In this document: piece by piece, positions 42,177-48,593 of the stretch
Numbering within the stretch: the stretch's first letter is position 1
Layout: each line of letters begins with the position of its first letter
From: Halovivax limisalsi
Lineage (GTDB): Archaea > Halobacteriota > Halobacteria > Halobacteriales > Natrialbaceae
DNA: 64,000 nt
Assembly (NCBI RefSeq): GCF_023093535.1
Contig: NZ_CP095757.1
Coordinates: forward strand, 992,001 to 1,056,000
Direction of reading: 5' to 3'
Program-made: the position numbers and the translations under genes
Notes under the pieces: model-generated
Seen by the model: only the letters and a program-made list of their open reading frames with translations
Database searches by the model: none
Told to the model about the DNA's origin: nothing

Positions 42177-42470
42177 TCACTCGGCGCAGCAGGCGTCTTC
42201 CGCCGGGGGCGAGTCGTCGAGACCGCCGTCGGCGGCGACCGGCTCTTCGAGCCGGTAGAGGCTCTGTCGCGCGTCGGCGAAGTAGATCCCCTCGTCGACG
42301 ATGTCGAGTTCCTCGAGGCGTTCGAGCGCGTAGCGGACCGTCCGGGCCGAGAGCATCGACTCCTCGACGATCTGCTTCTGCGTGAGGGGGCCGTCGTACT
42401 CGAGCACCTTGTACACCAGCTTGGCGCTCGGAGGGCAATCCGAGAGGTCGTCCGCGTCGATTCCGTCCAT
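42177..42470 (-). CDS. MarR-like winged-helix transcriptional regulator
   Basis: 97 residues starting MDGIDADDLSDCPPSAKLVY. The winged-helix core is KLVYKVLEYDGPLTQKQIVE, the recognition region MLSARTVRYALERLEELDIV, and a wing EGIYFADARQSLYRLEE. The C-terminus ends EDACCAE, with adjacent cysteines, and a further Cys occurs near residue 12, so metal or redox sensing is possible. The ATG at 42470 is preferred over a longer frame to 42602 because the TATA-like box at 42497-42505 lies about 30 nt upstream. Target genes are unknown; it is not obviously linked to neighbours. Confidence 0.83.
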   Translation of the reverse strand: MDGIDADDLSDCPPSAKLVYKVLEYDGPLTQKQIVEESMLSARTVRYALERLEELDIVDEGIYFADARQSLYRLEEPVAADGGLDDSPPAEDACCAE

Positions 42471-42812
42471 CGTTACGATTCGAAACTCTCCAGATGCATA
42501 AAGTTGACTCACTTCCGCTGGTGGAAGATCTGGGCCGAAGGCGGCCGGTACCGTCGGATTCTCAAATCGAGACAGGTGGCGGAACGGCACCGATTCCAGC
42601 AAGCCGGGATCGGCCGGCGACGCAGCTGGGGTGACGATCAGCGATCGAATCGGTTTCGCCGATCGGAACCGAGTTGCGGAACGGCTCCGTCGCTGCTCGG
42701 CTTCGTCGTGATCGGATTCGGGTGGCCGGACGAGGCAGAGTCGTGGGACGCGCCCGGATCGCAGAACGGACCCCGACCGCGGAGAGACGCGGCGGTCTGG
42801 CTGGATCGGTGC
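42471..42812. other. Intergenic region upstream of the MarR-like gene
   Basis: Only the promoter of the MarR-like gene is supported: a TATA-like AACTTTATG on the minus strand at 42497-42505. The remainder (about 42510-42812), downstream of the DUF5305 gene, shows no coding character in any frame that fits haloarchaeal composition and no clear repeat. Confidence 0.5.
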
Positions 42813-44018
42813 CTAGATTCTGTGCCAGGCGTCCTCGTCCGAGGGGTCGAGGTCCGCCGGCGGTTCGAGGGTGGCGCCGCCTGCCTCCCGCTCGATCCGG
42901 GATCGGTCGGTTTCGGACGTCGACTGGCCCGGCCCGCCGGCCCCCGGTCCGCGCCCGGCGGGCGGCGGAGTGAACTCGTCGTCGCCCTCCTCGTCGAGAT
43001 CGATATCCGGCCAGGCGGTCTCCTCCCAGAGGCCGCGGTCGGTGTAGTAGTAGACGACGCCGTCGGTCACCGTCGCGTAGAGGCCCCGCTGGCGGTCGTG
43101 GACGACGCGGTTGTTCGTGTCGACGGCGACGTCGACGACGTCCTCGAGCGTCTCGAGGGAGATGTGGTGGTCGCCGATCCACATCGGGATCGACCCGCGG
43201 GAGATCCACTCCGCGTACCGCCGTTCGTGCAGCGCCCGGAGCGCCGCCTGCTCGTCGACGGGCCGGCGCCGGTCGAGCGTCCAGGCGGCGCCGAGACCGA
43301 GTGTCCCCACCAGCGCGAACAGGCCCACGAACGCCGGGCTTCGCGGTTCCGTTTCTGTTACCGTCCGGCTCTCCGTGTGGGGCTGGGCGGCCGACGGCGT
43401 CGGCTCGACCAGCCAGGCGGCGGAGTCGGTGACGACCAGTTCCGTCTCGACGTCGACCGACTCCGCGCTCGCGCCCAGCTCGTATCGGGTTTCGACCACG
43501 ACGATCGTCCGGACGCTGCCGACGCCGCCGACCTGGCGCTCGACGGCTCGCCGGTCGGCCAGGACGGCTTCGAGGTCGATCGTCGCCTCGCTCGTCGCCA
43601 CGCCGTCCTCGACGGTCGGTTGCGTCCGCGCGATCCGTTCCTCTCGCTCCCAGAAGACCGACTCGTCGCGGACCGCTTCGTGACGGAGACCCACGTCGTG
43701 GACGACCGCACTCGCCTCGGACGGGACGCTCGTTTCCGGTTCGAGCGTCAGCGTCGACGTCGCGTTTCGCAGGTAGACCGGCTCGTCGGAGAGTACCGTG
43801 CCCTCGCTCCAGAGTCCGTCGGACTCGACGACGGCGCTCGTTCCGACCGTCGTCTCGACCGTACCGCGATCGATCTCCTGCGTCGTCGTCCGCTCGTGCG
43901 GCGTCGCCACGGCCCACCCGCTGATCAGCAGCGCCAGCACGCCGACGATCGCCAGCGCCAGGACGAGTCGCGAGCCGTACCTGGCGACCAGCAGGTCGAT
44001 GCGCGCGTCGCCGATCAT
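42813..44018 (-). CDS. DUF5305-like membrane protein of the signal-peptidase cluster
   Basis: 401 residues. One helix near the N-terminus (LVLALAIVGVLALLISGWAV), an extracytoplasmic beta-rich region (about 40-225), a second helix (AFVGLFALVGTLGLGAAWTL), and an acidic cytoplasmic tail (to 401) containing IPMWIGDHHISLETLEDVVD. This layout matches DUF5305 proteins, which in haloarchaea and some other archaea sit beside SipW-like signal peptidases. It follows the signal peptidase gene by 118 bp in the same direction. It may assist export or anchoring of the secreted proteins in the cluster. Confidence 0.75.
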   Translation of the reverse strand: MIGDARIDLLVARYGSRLVLALAIVGVLALLISGWAVATPHERTTTQEIDRGTVETTVGTSAVVESDGLWSEGTVLSDEPVYLRNATSTLTLEPETSVPSEASAVVHDVGLRHEAVRDESVFWEREERIARTQPTVEDGVATSEATIDLEAVLADRRAVERQVGGVGSVRTIVVVETRYELGASAESVDVETELVVTDSAAWLVEPTPSAAQPHTESRTVTETEPRSPAFVGLFALVGTLGLGAAWTLDRRRPVDEQAALRALHERRYAEWISRGSIPMWIGDHHISLETLEDVVDVAVDTNNRVVHDRQRGLYATVTDGVVYYYTDRGLWEETAWPDIDLDEEGDDEFTPPPAGRGPGAGGPGQSTSETDRSRIEREAGGATLEPPADLDPSDEDAWHRI

Positions 44019-44136
44019 GTCGCGTCCCCCCGGTGCCCGTCCGCCCCCGGTCGGGCCTCGATTCCCCCGTCGACCGCCGTTCGTTCGCGAACTCGATTCG
44101 TGTGTCCTGTCATGCGTGTCTCTCCCGGTCGTTCGA

Positions 44137-45312
44137 TCAGCCGATCCATCGTCGCACCCGCCTGTGGAGTCGCCTGGCGGCCGGGACGTGGTCTCCCGGC
44201 CGCCGCAGTCTGAGGTCGCCCGATCCGAAGACGACCAGCACGAGCGCGACCGTCGCCCCCACGACGACCGCGTCGACCACCGCGACGGCGAGGTACGGAT
44301 GGACGTCGTGGGCGGCGACGAGCACGCCCGGCGGCGCGACCAGCAGGTAGCGATACTCGCTGACCGTCCGGAGATAGCGTCCCTCCGCGGTCGGCGCCGC
44401 GAGCTGGACGGTCGTTTCGGCCTGCGCGCTCGGGCCGACGGTCCGGGTCGCGGGCTCGACGGTGACGCCGGGACTGGCGGCCTCCGTCCGGACGACGACC
44501 GGCAGCCAGCCGGCGTTGTCGACGACGCGGGTCAGCTCGCCCGTCTCGCCGGGCGCGAGCACCTGCGGATCGTCGGTCGGCCGGTCCGTGCTCACGACGT
44601 CGTAAGCGGTGGTCCCCGACGGGATCACCATCGCGGCCGTCGCGAGCGTCACGAGCACGAGCAGGACGAGCCCGATCGCCGTCCAGACGCTGAGGACGTT
44701 CTCGCGCGCGTAGGACCGCTCGGCGTCCCGGCGAGCCGGCCCCGCCCGATCGAGGACGAACCCGAAGCCGGCGAGGACGATCCCGATCCCGACGAGCAGC
44801 GCGCCCGCTCCGCCACCGTCCGAGGGGCCGCCGGTGACGCCCGAGACGGTTCCCGCGAGCGCGTCGGCGGCCGCGCCGATCTCCATCGCGATCGTTCCGA
44901 GATGCGGGATCGTCACGACGCCCCCGCCGAGGCGGAGCGCCGTGGCGACGACCTGCCCGTCGGTCACCGGCGGCTCGCCCGCGTCCTGGTCGGTGAACGG
45001 GTTCGCGTCGCCCCTGGTAACGTAGCCCTCGTCGGTCACGTCGACGACGCGGTGGGTCGTCAGCTCCCCCTCGTTGACCTCGCGCGCTTCGAAGACGACG
45101 ACGTCGCCTTCGGAGATCTCCCCCGAGACGCCGTCCGGCACGGCGACGAAGCCGTCGCCGGCCGCGAGTTCGGGCGCCATGCTCCCCGACGCGACGTACC
45201 CGAGCAGGATCGGCTGGCCCAGCACGTGACCCAGCAGTAGCGCCGCCACGACGACGGCGATCCCGATCCCGATCGTCCGGTCGATGTATCCCCATCCGTC
45301 CATTATCCCCAA
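44137..45312 (-). CDS. SipW-like (archaeal S26B) signal peptidase I with an extended C-terminus
   Basis: 391 residues. The first membrane helix (IGIAVVVAALLLGHVLG) leads to the catalytic Ser44 in YVASGSMAPELAAGD, His87 in TTHRVVDV and Asp102 in YVTRGDAN: the Ser-His-Asp arrangement of archaeal/ER-type signal peptidases, unlike the bacterial Ser-Lys dyad. After about residue 150 there are further helices and an extracytoplasmic beta-rich domain of about 150 residues, longer than a minimal signal peptidase. An alternative start at 45303 (MDGWG) is possible. It clusters with two secreted proteins on the same strand and is probably their dedicated processing enzyme. Confidence 0.88.
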   Translation of the reverse strand: MGIMDGWGYIDRTIGIGIAVVVAALLLGHVLGQPILLGYVASGSMAPELAAGDGFVAVPDGVSGEISEGDVVVFEAREVNEGELTTHRVVDVTDEGYVTRGDANPFTDQDAGEPPVTDGQVVATALRLGGGVVTIPHLGTIAMEIGAAADALAGTVSGVTGGPSDGGGAGALLVGIGIVLAGFGFVLDRAGPARRDAERSYARENVLSVWTAIGLVLLVLVTLATAAMVIPSGTTAYDVVSTDRPTDDPQVLAPGETGELTRVVDNAGWLPVVVRTEAASPGVTVEPATRTVGPSAQAETTVQLAAPTAEGRYLRTVSEYRYLLVAPPGVLVAAHDVHPYLAVAVVDAVVVGATVALVLVVFGSGDLRLRRPGDHVPAARRLHRRVRRWIG

Positions 45313-45483
45313 TCCTCATCCGTCATCTCCGTCTTCCACCCCCGTTCGGCCCCCACCGAACGGTCTGGAACGTGCGTTGCGACGGTCCACTAGGATTTAG
45401 CTTCTATGGCGAGCAACCCTCTCTATCTCATTTCAACACTCCCTTGAACACAACTCGTTTACATTCTAAAACCCTATCCGTCG

Positions 45484-46422
45484 TTAATCGTAGAACTTTC
45501 GACGACGAATAAGCGAGCGGAGGACGAGGAGGGCGAGCGCCGCCGGCGGCGTTATCGTCACGGCGAGCGGCGAGGCGAGTTCGGACGCGCCGAACGCCGG
45601 GGCTGCGGGCTCGGTGGCGGTGACGGTCGCCGCGGCGACGCCGCCGATCGAGGCGACGTAGGTGCCGTCGCGCTCGACCTGCCAGGTGAACGTCACCGTC
45701 CGTCGCTCGCCCGGCGCCACGGACACGAGCCGATCGTCCAGGAGAACGCCGTTGACGGCCATCCCGAGGACCTCCTCGATTCGCTCGCTCCCGGGATTGG
45801 ACACGGTCGCGGTGGCCGAGACGGTCTCGCCGACCGAGACGTCGGTCCGCTCGACCGAGACGGCCGTGACCGTCAGCCGACTCGGCACCGGTTCGACCGG
45901 TTTTTCGGGTCCGTCGCCGTCGCCCGGCGGTTCCGGCGGAATCTCGGGTCCGCCGGGAGGTAGCCCGGGCGACGCCCCGGGCGCTCGGGTGACGATCGTG
46001 AACGTCTGCGGACCCGAGGCCGCGGTCCGGGTGTCGATCTCGACGCCGACGGCGCGCACCTCGCCGGGTTCGAGCCGGAGCGCATTCGTCTCGTCGAGGG
46101 GCCTCCCCGGCGTTTCGTCGACGTAAAACGTGATCCCCGGACGGTCGTGATCGATCCAGAGATCGCGTCGCGCGTTAGCGCGCACGGTGAAGACTTCGTG
46201 GGCGGTCGTGGTCGCCCGGTCGGCGAGGTCGTCGAACCGAAGCGTGAGCTCGCCGTCTTCGATCGTCGCGTACTCGCTCGCCGGCGACAGCGACACGCCG
46301 CTCTCGTCGTCGGTATCGTCGCGCTCGACGGCCACCGCCGGAACGGTCGCGACCGACGCGACGACGGCGAAACCGAGCAGCAGGACCAGCGCACGGACCC
46401 ATCCCCCAGAGAGTGCTCCCAT
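45484..46422 (-). CDS. Secreted, membrane-anchored beta-domain surface protein
   Basis: 312 residues. A Sec-type signal peptide (VLLLGFAVVASVATVPAVAV) is followed by an N-terminal beta domain (about 35-140, with VSLSPASEYATIEDGELTLRF split over strands), a Pro/Gly-rich hinge (about 150-175), a CARDB-like adhesion domain (VERTDVSVGETVSATATVSN, VAPGERRTVTFTWQV), and a C-terminal helix with a basic stop (ALALLVLRSLIRRRKFYD). It is probably exposed on the cell surface. The N-terminal domain resembles that of the next gene upstream, suggesting the two interact or are paralogous subunits. Confidence 0.72.
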   Translation of the reverse strand: MGALSGGWVRALVLLLGFAVVASVATVPAVAVERDDTDDESGVSLSPASEYATIEDGELTLRFDDLADRATTTAHEVFTVRANARRDLWIDHDRPGITFYVDETPGRPLDETNALRLEPGEVRAVGVEIDTRTAASGPQTFTIVTRAPGASPGLPPGGPEIPPEPPGDGDGPEKPVEPVPSRLTVTAVSVERTDVSVGETVSATATVSNPGSERIEEVLGMAVNGVLLDDRLVSVAPGERRTVTFTWQVERDGTYVASIGGVAAATVTATEPAAPAFGASELASPLAVTITPPAALALLVLRSLIRRRKFYD

Positions 46423-46524
46423 CGGTACTGTCGAAACGCGGTTCTACGATTCCGTCCGTTCCCCGGACGCCCGCTCGTGACGAGCGTTCGCGCCCCCCAG
46501 CGCGACGCGCTTCGGTGCTGTCGG

Positions 46525-46986
46525 TTACGCGGTCACGTCGATCGTGACGGTTTGGTTCAGCGAGGCCCCCGAAGCCGCGCCGTCGGTGACGATCTCGACG
46601 TCGACCGCGGTGCTCGAACCGGATGCGACGGTCGAACTGCCCGGTGTGAGCGTCACGGAGATCCCGTTCGCGCTCACGGTCCACGGCGAGTTGAGCGCGA
46701 TCTGTGCGCTGTGATTGTTGACGATGTCGAATACACCCGTCAGCGTGACCGTCGCGTCGAGGTTGACGTTACTCAGGTCGAGTTGCAGCGTCCCGCTGGA
46801 GACGCTCGCGTAACTGCTCGTCGGGCTGAACCCGACGAGTGCCGACCCCGAGTCGTCGTCCGCGGTACTGACCGTGACCGTTCGATCCGCGCTGACGGTA
46901 CTGAACGCGCCCGTTCCGAGCAGTGCGCCGCCGCCCGCCACGATTCCACCCAATCCCGCTAACACGTTGCGTCGATTCATGTTCAT
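46525..46986 (-). CDS. TasA/camelysin-like secreted protein with Tat signal
   Basis: 153 residues. A twin-arginine-type signal (MNRRNVLAGLGG, then a Gly/Ala core ending GAFSTVSADR) precedes a Ser/Thr-rich beta-sandwich domain (ADDDSGSALVGFSP, DIVNNHSAQIALNSP, TVASGSSTAVDVEIVTDG). 'GTGAFSTVSADRTVTV' followed by a jelly-roll-like domain is typical of haloarchaeal proteins related to CalY/TasA or DUF1102 families, which form extracellular fibres in bacteria and related pili in some archaea. The neighbouring SipW-like peptidase supports this reading. The start could also be MNRRN at 46980. It is the first gene of the minus-strand surface cluster. Confidence 0.7.
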   Translation of the reverse strand: MNMNRRNVLAGLGGIVAGGGALLGTGAFSTVSADRTVTVSTADDDSGSALVGFSPTSSYASVSSGTLQLDLSNVNLDATVTLTGVFDIVNNHSAQIALNSPWTVSANGISVTLTPGSSTVASGSSTAVDVEIVTDGAASGASLNQTVTIDVTA

Positions 46987-47089
46987 GGTACATCCACCAC
47001 CCCCCGGTGGCGTTGATCGATCCGATGGGTCCCACTCCCTTTGTATTGCGCAACCGGAAAACGGATAGCTCTCGTAGAACCAAGTTCAA

Positions 47090-47134
47090 GGCCTACTTGA
47101 GGCCATATTTCCAAACAAATAACGGCCATTGGCC
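47090..47134. promoter_or_regulatory. Palindromic sites between the TasA-like gene and the winged-helix membrane gene
   Basis: GGCCT (47090-47094) and AGGCC (47100-47104) form an inverted repeat, nested in CAAGT/ACTTG at 47081-47099. A second palindrome, GGCCATTGGCC, lies at 47124-47134 next to a TATA-like TAATATATTT (47136-47145). These are candidate operators for the divergent pair. Confidence 0.45.
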
Positions 47135-47184
47135 CTAATATATTTGTAGCGGACGGGCATACACTTCGATCCGCACACGGGGGT

Positions 47185-47730
47185 GTGAGGGTGAGAGGAC
47201 TGACACGAACGGAATCGTCACGACGCGGCGACGTTTTCGACCTGTTGAGCAATCGCCGTCGGCGCTACGCGATCCACTACTGCAAGCAGGCGGACGGCCC
47301 GGTGACGCTTGGCGAGCTGGCCGAGCAGGTCGCCGCCTGGGAGCTCGAGAAGGAGATCGCGGCGCTCACCTCGGCCGAGCGAAAGCGCGTGTACACCGCG
47401 TTACAGCAGACGCACCTGCCCACGCTCGAACGCGCGAACGTGATCGAGTTCGAGGACCACTCCGTCGAACTGACCGAGGAGGCGGCCGAGCTCGAGGTCT
47501 ACCTCGACATCGTCCCCGGGAACTCGATCCCCTGGGGCGTCTACTACCTCGGACTCAGCGCGCTCGGCTCCGCCGTCCTGGCCGGCGTCTGGATCGGGCT
47601 GGTGCCGACGAGCACGGTCCCGACGCTCGGCTGGGCGATGATCGTCCTGGCTGCCGTCGGAATCTCTGCGCTCGCACACGTGCTGTCGAGTCGGCGCTAC
47701 CGACTGGGGGAGATCGACCGGCCGCCGTAA
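47185..47730 (+). CDS. Membrane-anchored winged-helix protein (DUF7344-like)
   Basis: 181 residues from a GTG start (a second GTG lies at 47191). The N-terminal winged-helix domain has the haloarchaeal signature DVFDLLSNRRRRYAIHYC, then ELAEQVAAWELEKE and YTALQQTHLPTLERANVIEF. Two membrane helices follow (GVYYLGLSALGSAVLAGVWI and LGWAMIVLAAVGISALAHVL). Proteins of this kind are thought to be one-component membrane-tethered transcription regulators. Its divergent position to the TasA-like gene with palindromes between them makes it a candidate regulator of the surface cluster. Confidence 0.8.
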   Translation: MRVRGLTRTESSRRGDVFDLLSNRRRRYAIHYCKQADGPVTLGELAEQVAAWELEKEIAALTSAERKRVYTALQQTHLPTLERANVIEFEDHSVELTEEAAELEVYLDIVPGNSIPWGVYYLGLSALGSAVLAGVWIGLVPTSTVPTLGWAMIVLAAVGISALAHVLSSRRYRLGEIDRPP

Positions 47731-47750
47731 CGGGGGCTTGAACACGAATC

Positions 47751-48593
47751 ATGTCCGGGGCGACGCTCTCGAGACTGGGGCTGGTGCTGGTGGTGGTCGG
47801 AGCCCTGGCGCTGTCCGGCCCCGCGTTCGGCTTCGCCTCGCTCGGTGCGGATCGCGGCGTAGGCGTCACCACCGCCGATACCGAAACGGCGATGCTTTCG
47901 ATCTACTCGACCGGCGAAACGCCCGATCAGCACGCCGACGCCGACGTCATCGAGATCGCGAACAACGCGGGCGTGACCTTCGAGACGCTCGATACCGAGG
48001 CGACGATCGTCGACGATCCGAACGGCGCGCTCGCGTTCACTCAGAACGGCTTCGCCGCGACGCTCGCCCCGGGCGAGTCGACTGGCCTCGAGATGACGTG
48101 TGCCGGCGGGGGCAAAGGAACGGCGACCGTCTCGGTGACGGCGAACGCGACCGGTCCCGGCCTTTCGATCACCGGCGTCTCGTACTCGCGTACCTTCGAC
48201 TACGCCTGCACCGGCGGTGGTGGAACGGGTCCCGTCGCCTTCGACGCGAGCGACCTCGCGACGAGCGATACGGCCCAGACGTTCACGTTCGACGGGAGCG
48301 CGCTCAAGAACAAGGACGCGGTGACGATCGACGTCTCCGCGCTCCAGGACGCCGGGCTGGTCGACTACGGCAACGTCACCGATGCGGACGTAACCGTGGT
48401 CCGGGGAAGCGCACGCGACGTCGGGTTCGACCCGTCGACGGGCGAACTGACGTACGTCCAGCAGGGCGGCGGGAGCGGGACCGTCGAGATCCGGCTCTCG
48501 AACCTGAACGTGCTCGATTCCGGGAGCGAGACGGTGACGTACGCCGACGATCGGGGTCGATCCGACAGCGATCGCGTGACGGTCGGCTCTTGA
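47751..48593 (+). CDS. Secreted beta-rich protein of the surface cluster
   Basis: 280 residues with a Sec-type signal (LGLVLVVVGALALSGPAFGF) and an N-terminal beta domain (about 35-155; TADTETAMLSIYSTGETPD, VTFETLDTEATIVDDPNGAL), a Gly-rich hinge and a second beta domain (about 165-280; QTFTFDGSALKNKDAVTIDV). No anchor is visible at the C-terminus, so it is likely released or assembled outside. It contains two Cys (MTCAGGG, DYACTGGG) that could form a disulfide. It lies 20 bp after the winged-helix membrane gene and is probably co-transcribed with it. Confidence 0.68.
   Translation: MSGATLSRLGLVLVVVGALALSGPAFGFASLGADRGVGVTTADTETAMLSIYSTGETPDQHADADVIEIANNAGVTFETLDTEATIVDDPNGALAFTQNGFAATLAPGESTGLEMTCAGGGKGTATVSVTANATGPGLSITGVSYSRTFDYACTGGGGTGPVAFDASDLATSDTAQTFTFDGSALKNKDAVTIDVSALQDAGLVDYGNVTDADVTVVRGSARDVGFDPSTGELTYVQQGGGSGTVEIRLSNLNVLDSGSETVTYADDRGRSDSDRVTVGS

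Follow-up and report, generated by a model that had tools for sequence, protein, structure and literature searches.

TasA fibres are built by donor-strand exchange, in which each subunit gives an N-terminal strand to its neighbour, and the signal peptide of TasA is removed by the peptidase SipW (PMC9674648). Archaeal threads and bundling pili also rely on strand complementation (PMC9715654), and the tafi, fimbriae based on the subunit TafA, are described as dependent on the twin-arginine translocation (Tat) pathway (Galeva et al. 2025 iScience 28:111793, as cited in PMC12687288). The subject of the present work is a cluster of six genes, here called A to F, in a window of 64,000 nucleotides that comprises positions 992001-1056000 of the 3.89 Mb single-contig genome of the haloarchaeon Halovivax limisalsi (Natrialbaceae). 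A preliminary description of the window had placed six genes with the features of a surface-protein system at 42813-48593, and all six open reading frames (ORFs) are present there. To judge from their sequences, the view that these genes form a complete haloarchaeal surface-fibre set is largely right; the kind, that of the Tat-fimbriae, is already known and the fibre part is not new. What appears to be unreported, and to be the new part, is a candidate regulator-operator pair, the winged-helix protein E and a palindrome of the form TTCAAG-N5-CTTGAA upstream of the subunit gene D.

Relation of the gene set to Tat-fimbriae

The strongest single result of the analysis is structural in kind and concerns the subunit. 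The profile of the D family matches chain C, named 'Pilin', of the three-chain entry PDB 9P0A with an E-value of 2e-42, and D of the window alone matches it at 8e-15. In a Natrinema genome (G012) the corresponding syntenic locus (L047) encodes a D identical to this pilin at 196 of 212 residues (92.5%). A literature search found no paper for PDB 9P0A and none on Natrinema pili. D of the window begins with a twin-arginine signal, MNMNRRNVLAGLG..., and is predicted to be exported; the signal h-region is followed by the box TGAFSTVSADR, and a box of this type is present in 80 of the 83 D-type proteins, 78 of these 80 having RR or KR upstream of it. Among curated models D scores best with TafE (59.5 bits, against a cut-off of 155), followed by TafA (49.9 bits, against 190). 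D had previously been taken for a Tat-signal protein of the TasA/camelysin type: the Tat signal stands, and the TasA/camelysin assignment does not, as PF12389 (TasA/camelysin, Peptidase_M73) has no match in the whole genome in a search that found the B. subtilis control, and the relatives of D are haloarchaeal Taf proteins. The AlphaFold model of D (pLDDT 80, core above 90) has a confident beta-sandwich core. The fold of an archaeal bundling pilus, also proposed earlier, is indeed matched by this model, weakly: in a Foldseek search the Pyrobaculum bundling pilus 7UEG ranks second (probability 0.96, E 0.03, TM 0.40), and the Sulfolobus thread and FimA pilins are also near the top with weak scores.

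The genes are arranged as D-C-B-A on the minus strand, running from 46986 to 42813, with E and then F divergent from them on the plus strand. This set and its order are shared across about 20 genera, and the association is therefore beyond chance; among the 63 SipW-B loci with full flanks in named genomes an E-type protein is found in 54, A in 58 and D in 57. A scan of a 292-genome sample of the class with the NCBIfam TafA model placed 22 genomes over the cut-off. The locus L099, from one of these 22 genomes, is informative in that it carries TafA, TafC, TafE and TafF, all over their cut-offs, together with a SipW-type peptidase, a DUF7344 protein and a DUF5305 counterpart of A. Its DUF7344 gene lies between tafA and tafC, its SipW-type gene follows tafC, and the protein at the tafB position is 52% identical to E. 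From gene order and sequence we infer that the DUF7344 gene is tafB and the SipW gene tafD. All six genes of the window have counterparts in loci that carry TafA, TafC, TafE and TafF over the cut-offs. With a solved pilin in the D family and a locus homologous part by part to tafA loci, the earlier proposal of an extracellular fibre system that has a signal peptidase of its own is supported. Within the TafA scan, genome G170 has two TafA-type genes on separate contigs, C2 and C8 (214 and 158 bits).

The peptidase B is over the cut-off of TIGR02228 (54.9 bits, cut-off 51.85) and scores 41 bits, under the cut-off, with the SipW model. Ser41, His84, Asp99 and Asp105 do not vary among 22 relatives, so that the Ser-His pair and Asp residues of S26B peptidases of the endoplasmic reticulum/archaeal type are in place, as are four hydrophobic segments (residues 9-37, 162-188, 200-233 and 334-366) and a conserved extracytoplasmic beta domain between the later membrane helices. 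No other protein of the genome passes the TIGR02228 cut-off, and two weaker matches are a third gene and the peptidase of a second, paralogous cluster. In a tree of SipW proteins B groups, with support, with the peptidases of syntenic Natrialbaceae loci; the other peptidases of tafA loci and that of the second cluster fall outside this clade, two loci of which carry TafA, at 212 bits (G159) and 175 bits. A matches the Pfam family DUF5305 (E 7e-44) and is a candidate membrane accessory. C has a signal peptide, a pilin-like domain at about residues 40-147, a CARDB match (E 1.7e-7) and a C-terminal hydrophobic helix, and E of the candidate pair matches the DUF7344 winged helix (PF24035, E 5e-29) and has hydrophobic segments at 119-142 and 144-170. 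Thus the Ser-His-Asp signal peptidase, the DUF5305-like protein, the anchored CARDB-like protein and the membrane winged-helix protein of the preliminary description are all borne out.

C and F may mark the two ends of the fibre. By hhalign, C aligns with the D family at 98.8% and with TafF at 98.5%, and F with TafC at 98.2% and with the D family at 97.6%; a control pair gave 7.5%. The NCBIfam models give no TafF match for C despite this profile-profile homology, and the TafC match of F is weak (21 bits, cut-off 410). The predicted model of C consists of two beta sandwiches and terminal helices, and its Foldseek matches, mainly of the CARDB/fibronectin type, are uninformative on the pilin-like domain. 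In F a pilin-like N-domain, in which two cysteines are conserved (C117, C153), precedes a C-terminal part of wholly different length and sequence from one species to the next. The presence of a D-like domain suggests that C is a membrane base, and the variable part of F suggests a swappable tip; on sequence grounds C is a candidate base or anchor and TafF counterpart, and F a candidate tip subunit and TafC counterpart with an exchangeable C-terminus.

We put at roughly four in five the probability that the product of the cluster is a thin surface fimbria of the tafi kind, made in the following way. D would be exported folded through the Tat pathway and cleaved by B directly before AFSTVSADR, and the N-terminal strand thus freed would be inserted into the next subunit, so that subunits are chained by donor-strand exchange. 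C would anchor the fibre at the cell surface by its membrane helix and F would cap the far end as an adhesin or adaptor, giving a presumed order C-D-F along the fibre, with A as a membrane accessory. Membrane-anchored E would bind TTCAAG-N5-CTTGAA upstream of D and set the transcription of the D-C-B-A operon. Several observations weigh against this account. None of the window proteins reaches a Taf equivalog cut-off, and they are therefore classed as a diverged branch of the same kind of system and not as Taf equivalogs. Residues 1-45 of D, including the putative donor strand, are modelled at low confidence, and its fold bears a weak resemblance to those of known donor-strand pilins (E 0.02 at best, TM 0.40). 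The genome encodes no TafA-grade subunit at E <1e-20, and D must therefore, in its predicted role, act as the main subunit here. The analysis assigns a cluster conserved across the Natrialbaceae to a recently named class of archaeal fimbriae and connects this type of locus with a solved pilin.

A palindrome at the subunit promoter and its candidate reader

To our knowledge, essentially nothing has been established about the control of archaeal fimbriae other than type IV pili. In an alignment of the D-E intergenic regions of five species of the genus little is conserved besides a TATA-like element, CAATACAAAG, and the palindrome TTCAAG-N5-CTTGAA, which lies about 36 bp upstream of it. The core octamers of the TATA-like element, ATACAAAG and AATACAAA, each occur exactly in 11 of 20 D-E intergenic regions, and the palindrome is found with at most two mismatches in 13 of 20 such divergent regions, against 0.2 expected from letter shuffles. 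Across the Natrialbaceae the distance from it to the subunit gene downstream is about 110-170 bp. It is usually the sole exact copy in the genome, and it remains beside D where E has been relocated (L046, L047, L048, L051 and L108). Within a 145-genome sample, 14 genomes have one single exact copy, located at the D-type promoter of an A-B-C-D/E locus; one further exact copy, in family f4, lies in the promoter of a solitary D-type gene, and several others lie inside ORFs and are taken as chance. Enrichment of the palindrome genome-wide was considered and rejected, as the 145 genomes hold 28 exact copies and 26 of a reversed control; the palindrome is therefore special by place and not by number. 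A lone D-type gene at L153:5974-6687 (G067) has the exact palindrome and a TATA-like element in its promoter, and no homologue of E or SipW is found within the 12 kb examined.

The distribution of the palindrome follows that of one clade of DUF7344 winged-helix proteins. Of 21 named Natrialbaceae loci that have an orthologue of E, 18 carry the palindrome with two mismatches or fewer, always 131-173 bp upstream of D, and near E homologues of other clades the site is mostly missing, with best matches at scattered positions. Genome G016 is without both an E orthologue and the site. That E binds the palindrome is the simplest reading, and it is proposed here on this pattern of co-occurrence. With the site some 36 bp from the TATA-like element, on its upstream side, an activator would fit better than a repressor, which suggests that E may act in the former way. 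Two points speak against assigning the site to E: some homologues of E in other clades, at about 62-64% identity, are without it, and E-type proteins are also found outside taf loci. The genome has eight full-length E-type genes, just four of them in taf-type clusters, and the status of a dedicated regulator, which the preliminary description had suggested for E, is for that reason relative; the conserved single-copy palindrome speaks for it and the paralogues against it.

E-type genes at two other places in the genome may be mentioned. One paralogue (L114, G000:C1:2508500-2521500) lies near a short secreted N/Q/G-rich protein and further secreted-looking ORFs, and others (L116, G000:C1:2179500-2194500) stand among acetyltransferase-like and oxidoreductase-like genes, which themselves may have a part in surface-polysaccharide synthesis. 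In genome G026, of another family, an E homologue with 46% identity lies directly upstream of three type IV pilin-like genes (L119:5107-7410), and tandem copies of TTCAAG-N5-CTTGAA occupy the space between.

It is about an even bet, in our estimate, that E is a membrane-anchored, one-component winged-helix regulator that controls a single fibre operon through a single-copy palindrome, and that a second haloarchaeal family has put this pair to use again at an operon for type IV pili. Should this be true, the DUF7344 proteins would serve archaeal surface filaments in general as a modular switch; in any event a specific and cheaply testable regulator-operator pair is offered. The alternative that comes nearest is that the fibre is as proposed while the palindrome is read by another factor, for example the helix-turn-helix protein encoded at 42177-42602 or an unlinked regulator, with E acting elsewhere. 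Such a division of labour is conceivable though doubtful. It would accommodate the E homologues that have no palindrome and the size of the E-type family, which includes non-taf members, and many loci keep the HTH_24 gene of 42177-42602 in synteny; yet this gene is unlinked in G016, G019 and G024, though the exact site is kept in G019, and G016, without E orthologue and site, retains the HTH_24 gene. The tandem sites beside the E homologue at the type IV pilin operon of G026 also count against a separate factor. Since genomes exist that have the site without a linked HTH_24 gene, this gene was set aside as the regulator.

Other accounts of the fibre and of the site

D might be merely an adaptor, in the role of TafE, with the bulk of the fibre supplied by a D-type paralogue of the second cluster and the present locus giving accessory parts. 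We consider this unlikely, although D scores higher as TafE than as TafA and the genome has in that cluster several D-type proteins with a SipW, a DUF5305 protein and E homologues of their own. The two SipW proteins belong to separate supported clades, and each cluster therefore looks self-contained; moreover, at L047 the closest match to the solved pilin is the single D of the locus. The second cluster itself (G000:C1:1384670-1392547, within L058, 1381000-1397000) encodes D-type Tat-signal proteins, some of them in ORFs of 370-600 aa, a SipW-type peptidase, a DUF5305 protein and three DUF7344 proteins.

The palindrome could also be a hairpin or processing site of RNA in a long 5' leader of D and not an operator bound by protein, an account for which there is one suggestive point, a substitution in many loci (TTCAGG...CTTGAA, on the D-sense left half) that would keep a G-U pair. 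The conserved TATA-like element between the site and D would, however, place the palindrome outside the D transcript. Both halves are kept as sequence, the occurrence of one copy per genome speaks for a dedicated protein, and an Rfam search gave no match, all of which make the RNA account decidedly improbable. That the cluster is a non-polymerising surface-protein or S-layer/adhesin module with D as a secreted monomer is very improbable, for even though the model of D shows a beta sandwich of generic form whose structural matches are weak and the genome is without a TafA-grade major subunit, the D of the same locus type at L047 is 92.5% identical to a solved three-chain 'Pilin' and the composition of the locus equals that of tafA loci.

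Features of the cluster and comparison with known systems

The coordinates of the genes and promoter elements are collected in Table 1. Beyond E and F the next genes are an EMC6-like gene and an ABCE1/RLI gene, which border the locus in most relatives.

Table 1. Genes and candidate promoter elements of the cluster, in window positions.
Feature	Position	Strand	Assignment or remark
A	42813..44018	-	DUF5305 membrane protein; PF17231
B	44137..45303	-	SipW-like S26B signal peptidase; TIGR02228 over cut-off; tafD position
Weak second palindrome copy	45432..45448		Upstream of B; one mismatch; possibly chance
C	45484..46422	-	Signal peptide, pilin-like domain, CARDB, C-terminal membrane helix
D	46525..46986	-	Tat-signal fimbrial subunit, TafE/TafA type
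TATA-like element of D promoter	47039..47048	-	CAATACAAAG
Candidate operator TTCAAG-N5-CTTGAA	47085..47101		Here TTCAAGGCCTACTTGAG; one mismatch
E	47185..47730	+	DUF7344 winged-helix protein, two C-terminal membrane segments; tafB position; candidate regulator
F	47751..48593	+	Sec-type secreted protein; TafC counterpart; candidate tip subunit

Comparison with described fibres places the locus at differing distances from each. With the TasA/TapA/SipW system of Bacillus subtilis it shares a SipW-type peptidase beside a beta-rich fibre subunit, whereas the window subunit bears a Tat and not a Sec signal. The AbpA bundling pilus of Pyrobaculum calidifontis (7UEG) has a weak likeness in fold to the D model, and no sequence match between them was found. 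The resemblance to the tafi is much more extensive, in that a Tat-signal subunit, TafC- and TafF-type proteins, a SipW-type peptidase, DUF7344 and DUF5305 are held in one locus. The window differs from the tafi in several respects: one subunit gene takes the place of tafA and tafE, F bears a Sec-type signal and lacks a LamG domain, and C includes a CARDB domain; the palindrome was not found in the tafA loci examined from families f4 and f5. The haloarchaeal pilin of PDB 9P0A differs from D of the window in length (215 aa, against 153 aa in D) and by divergence after about residue 100, and is a direct homologue of it.

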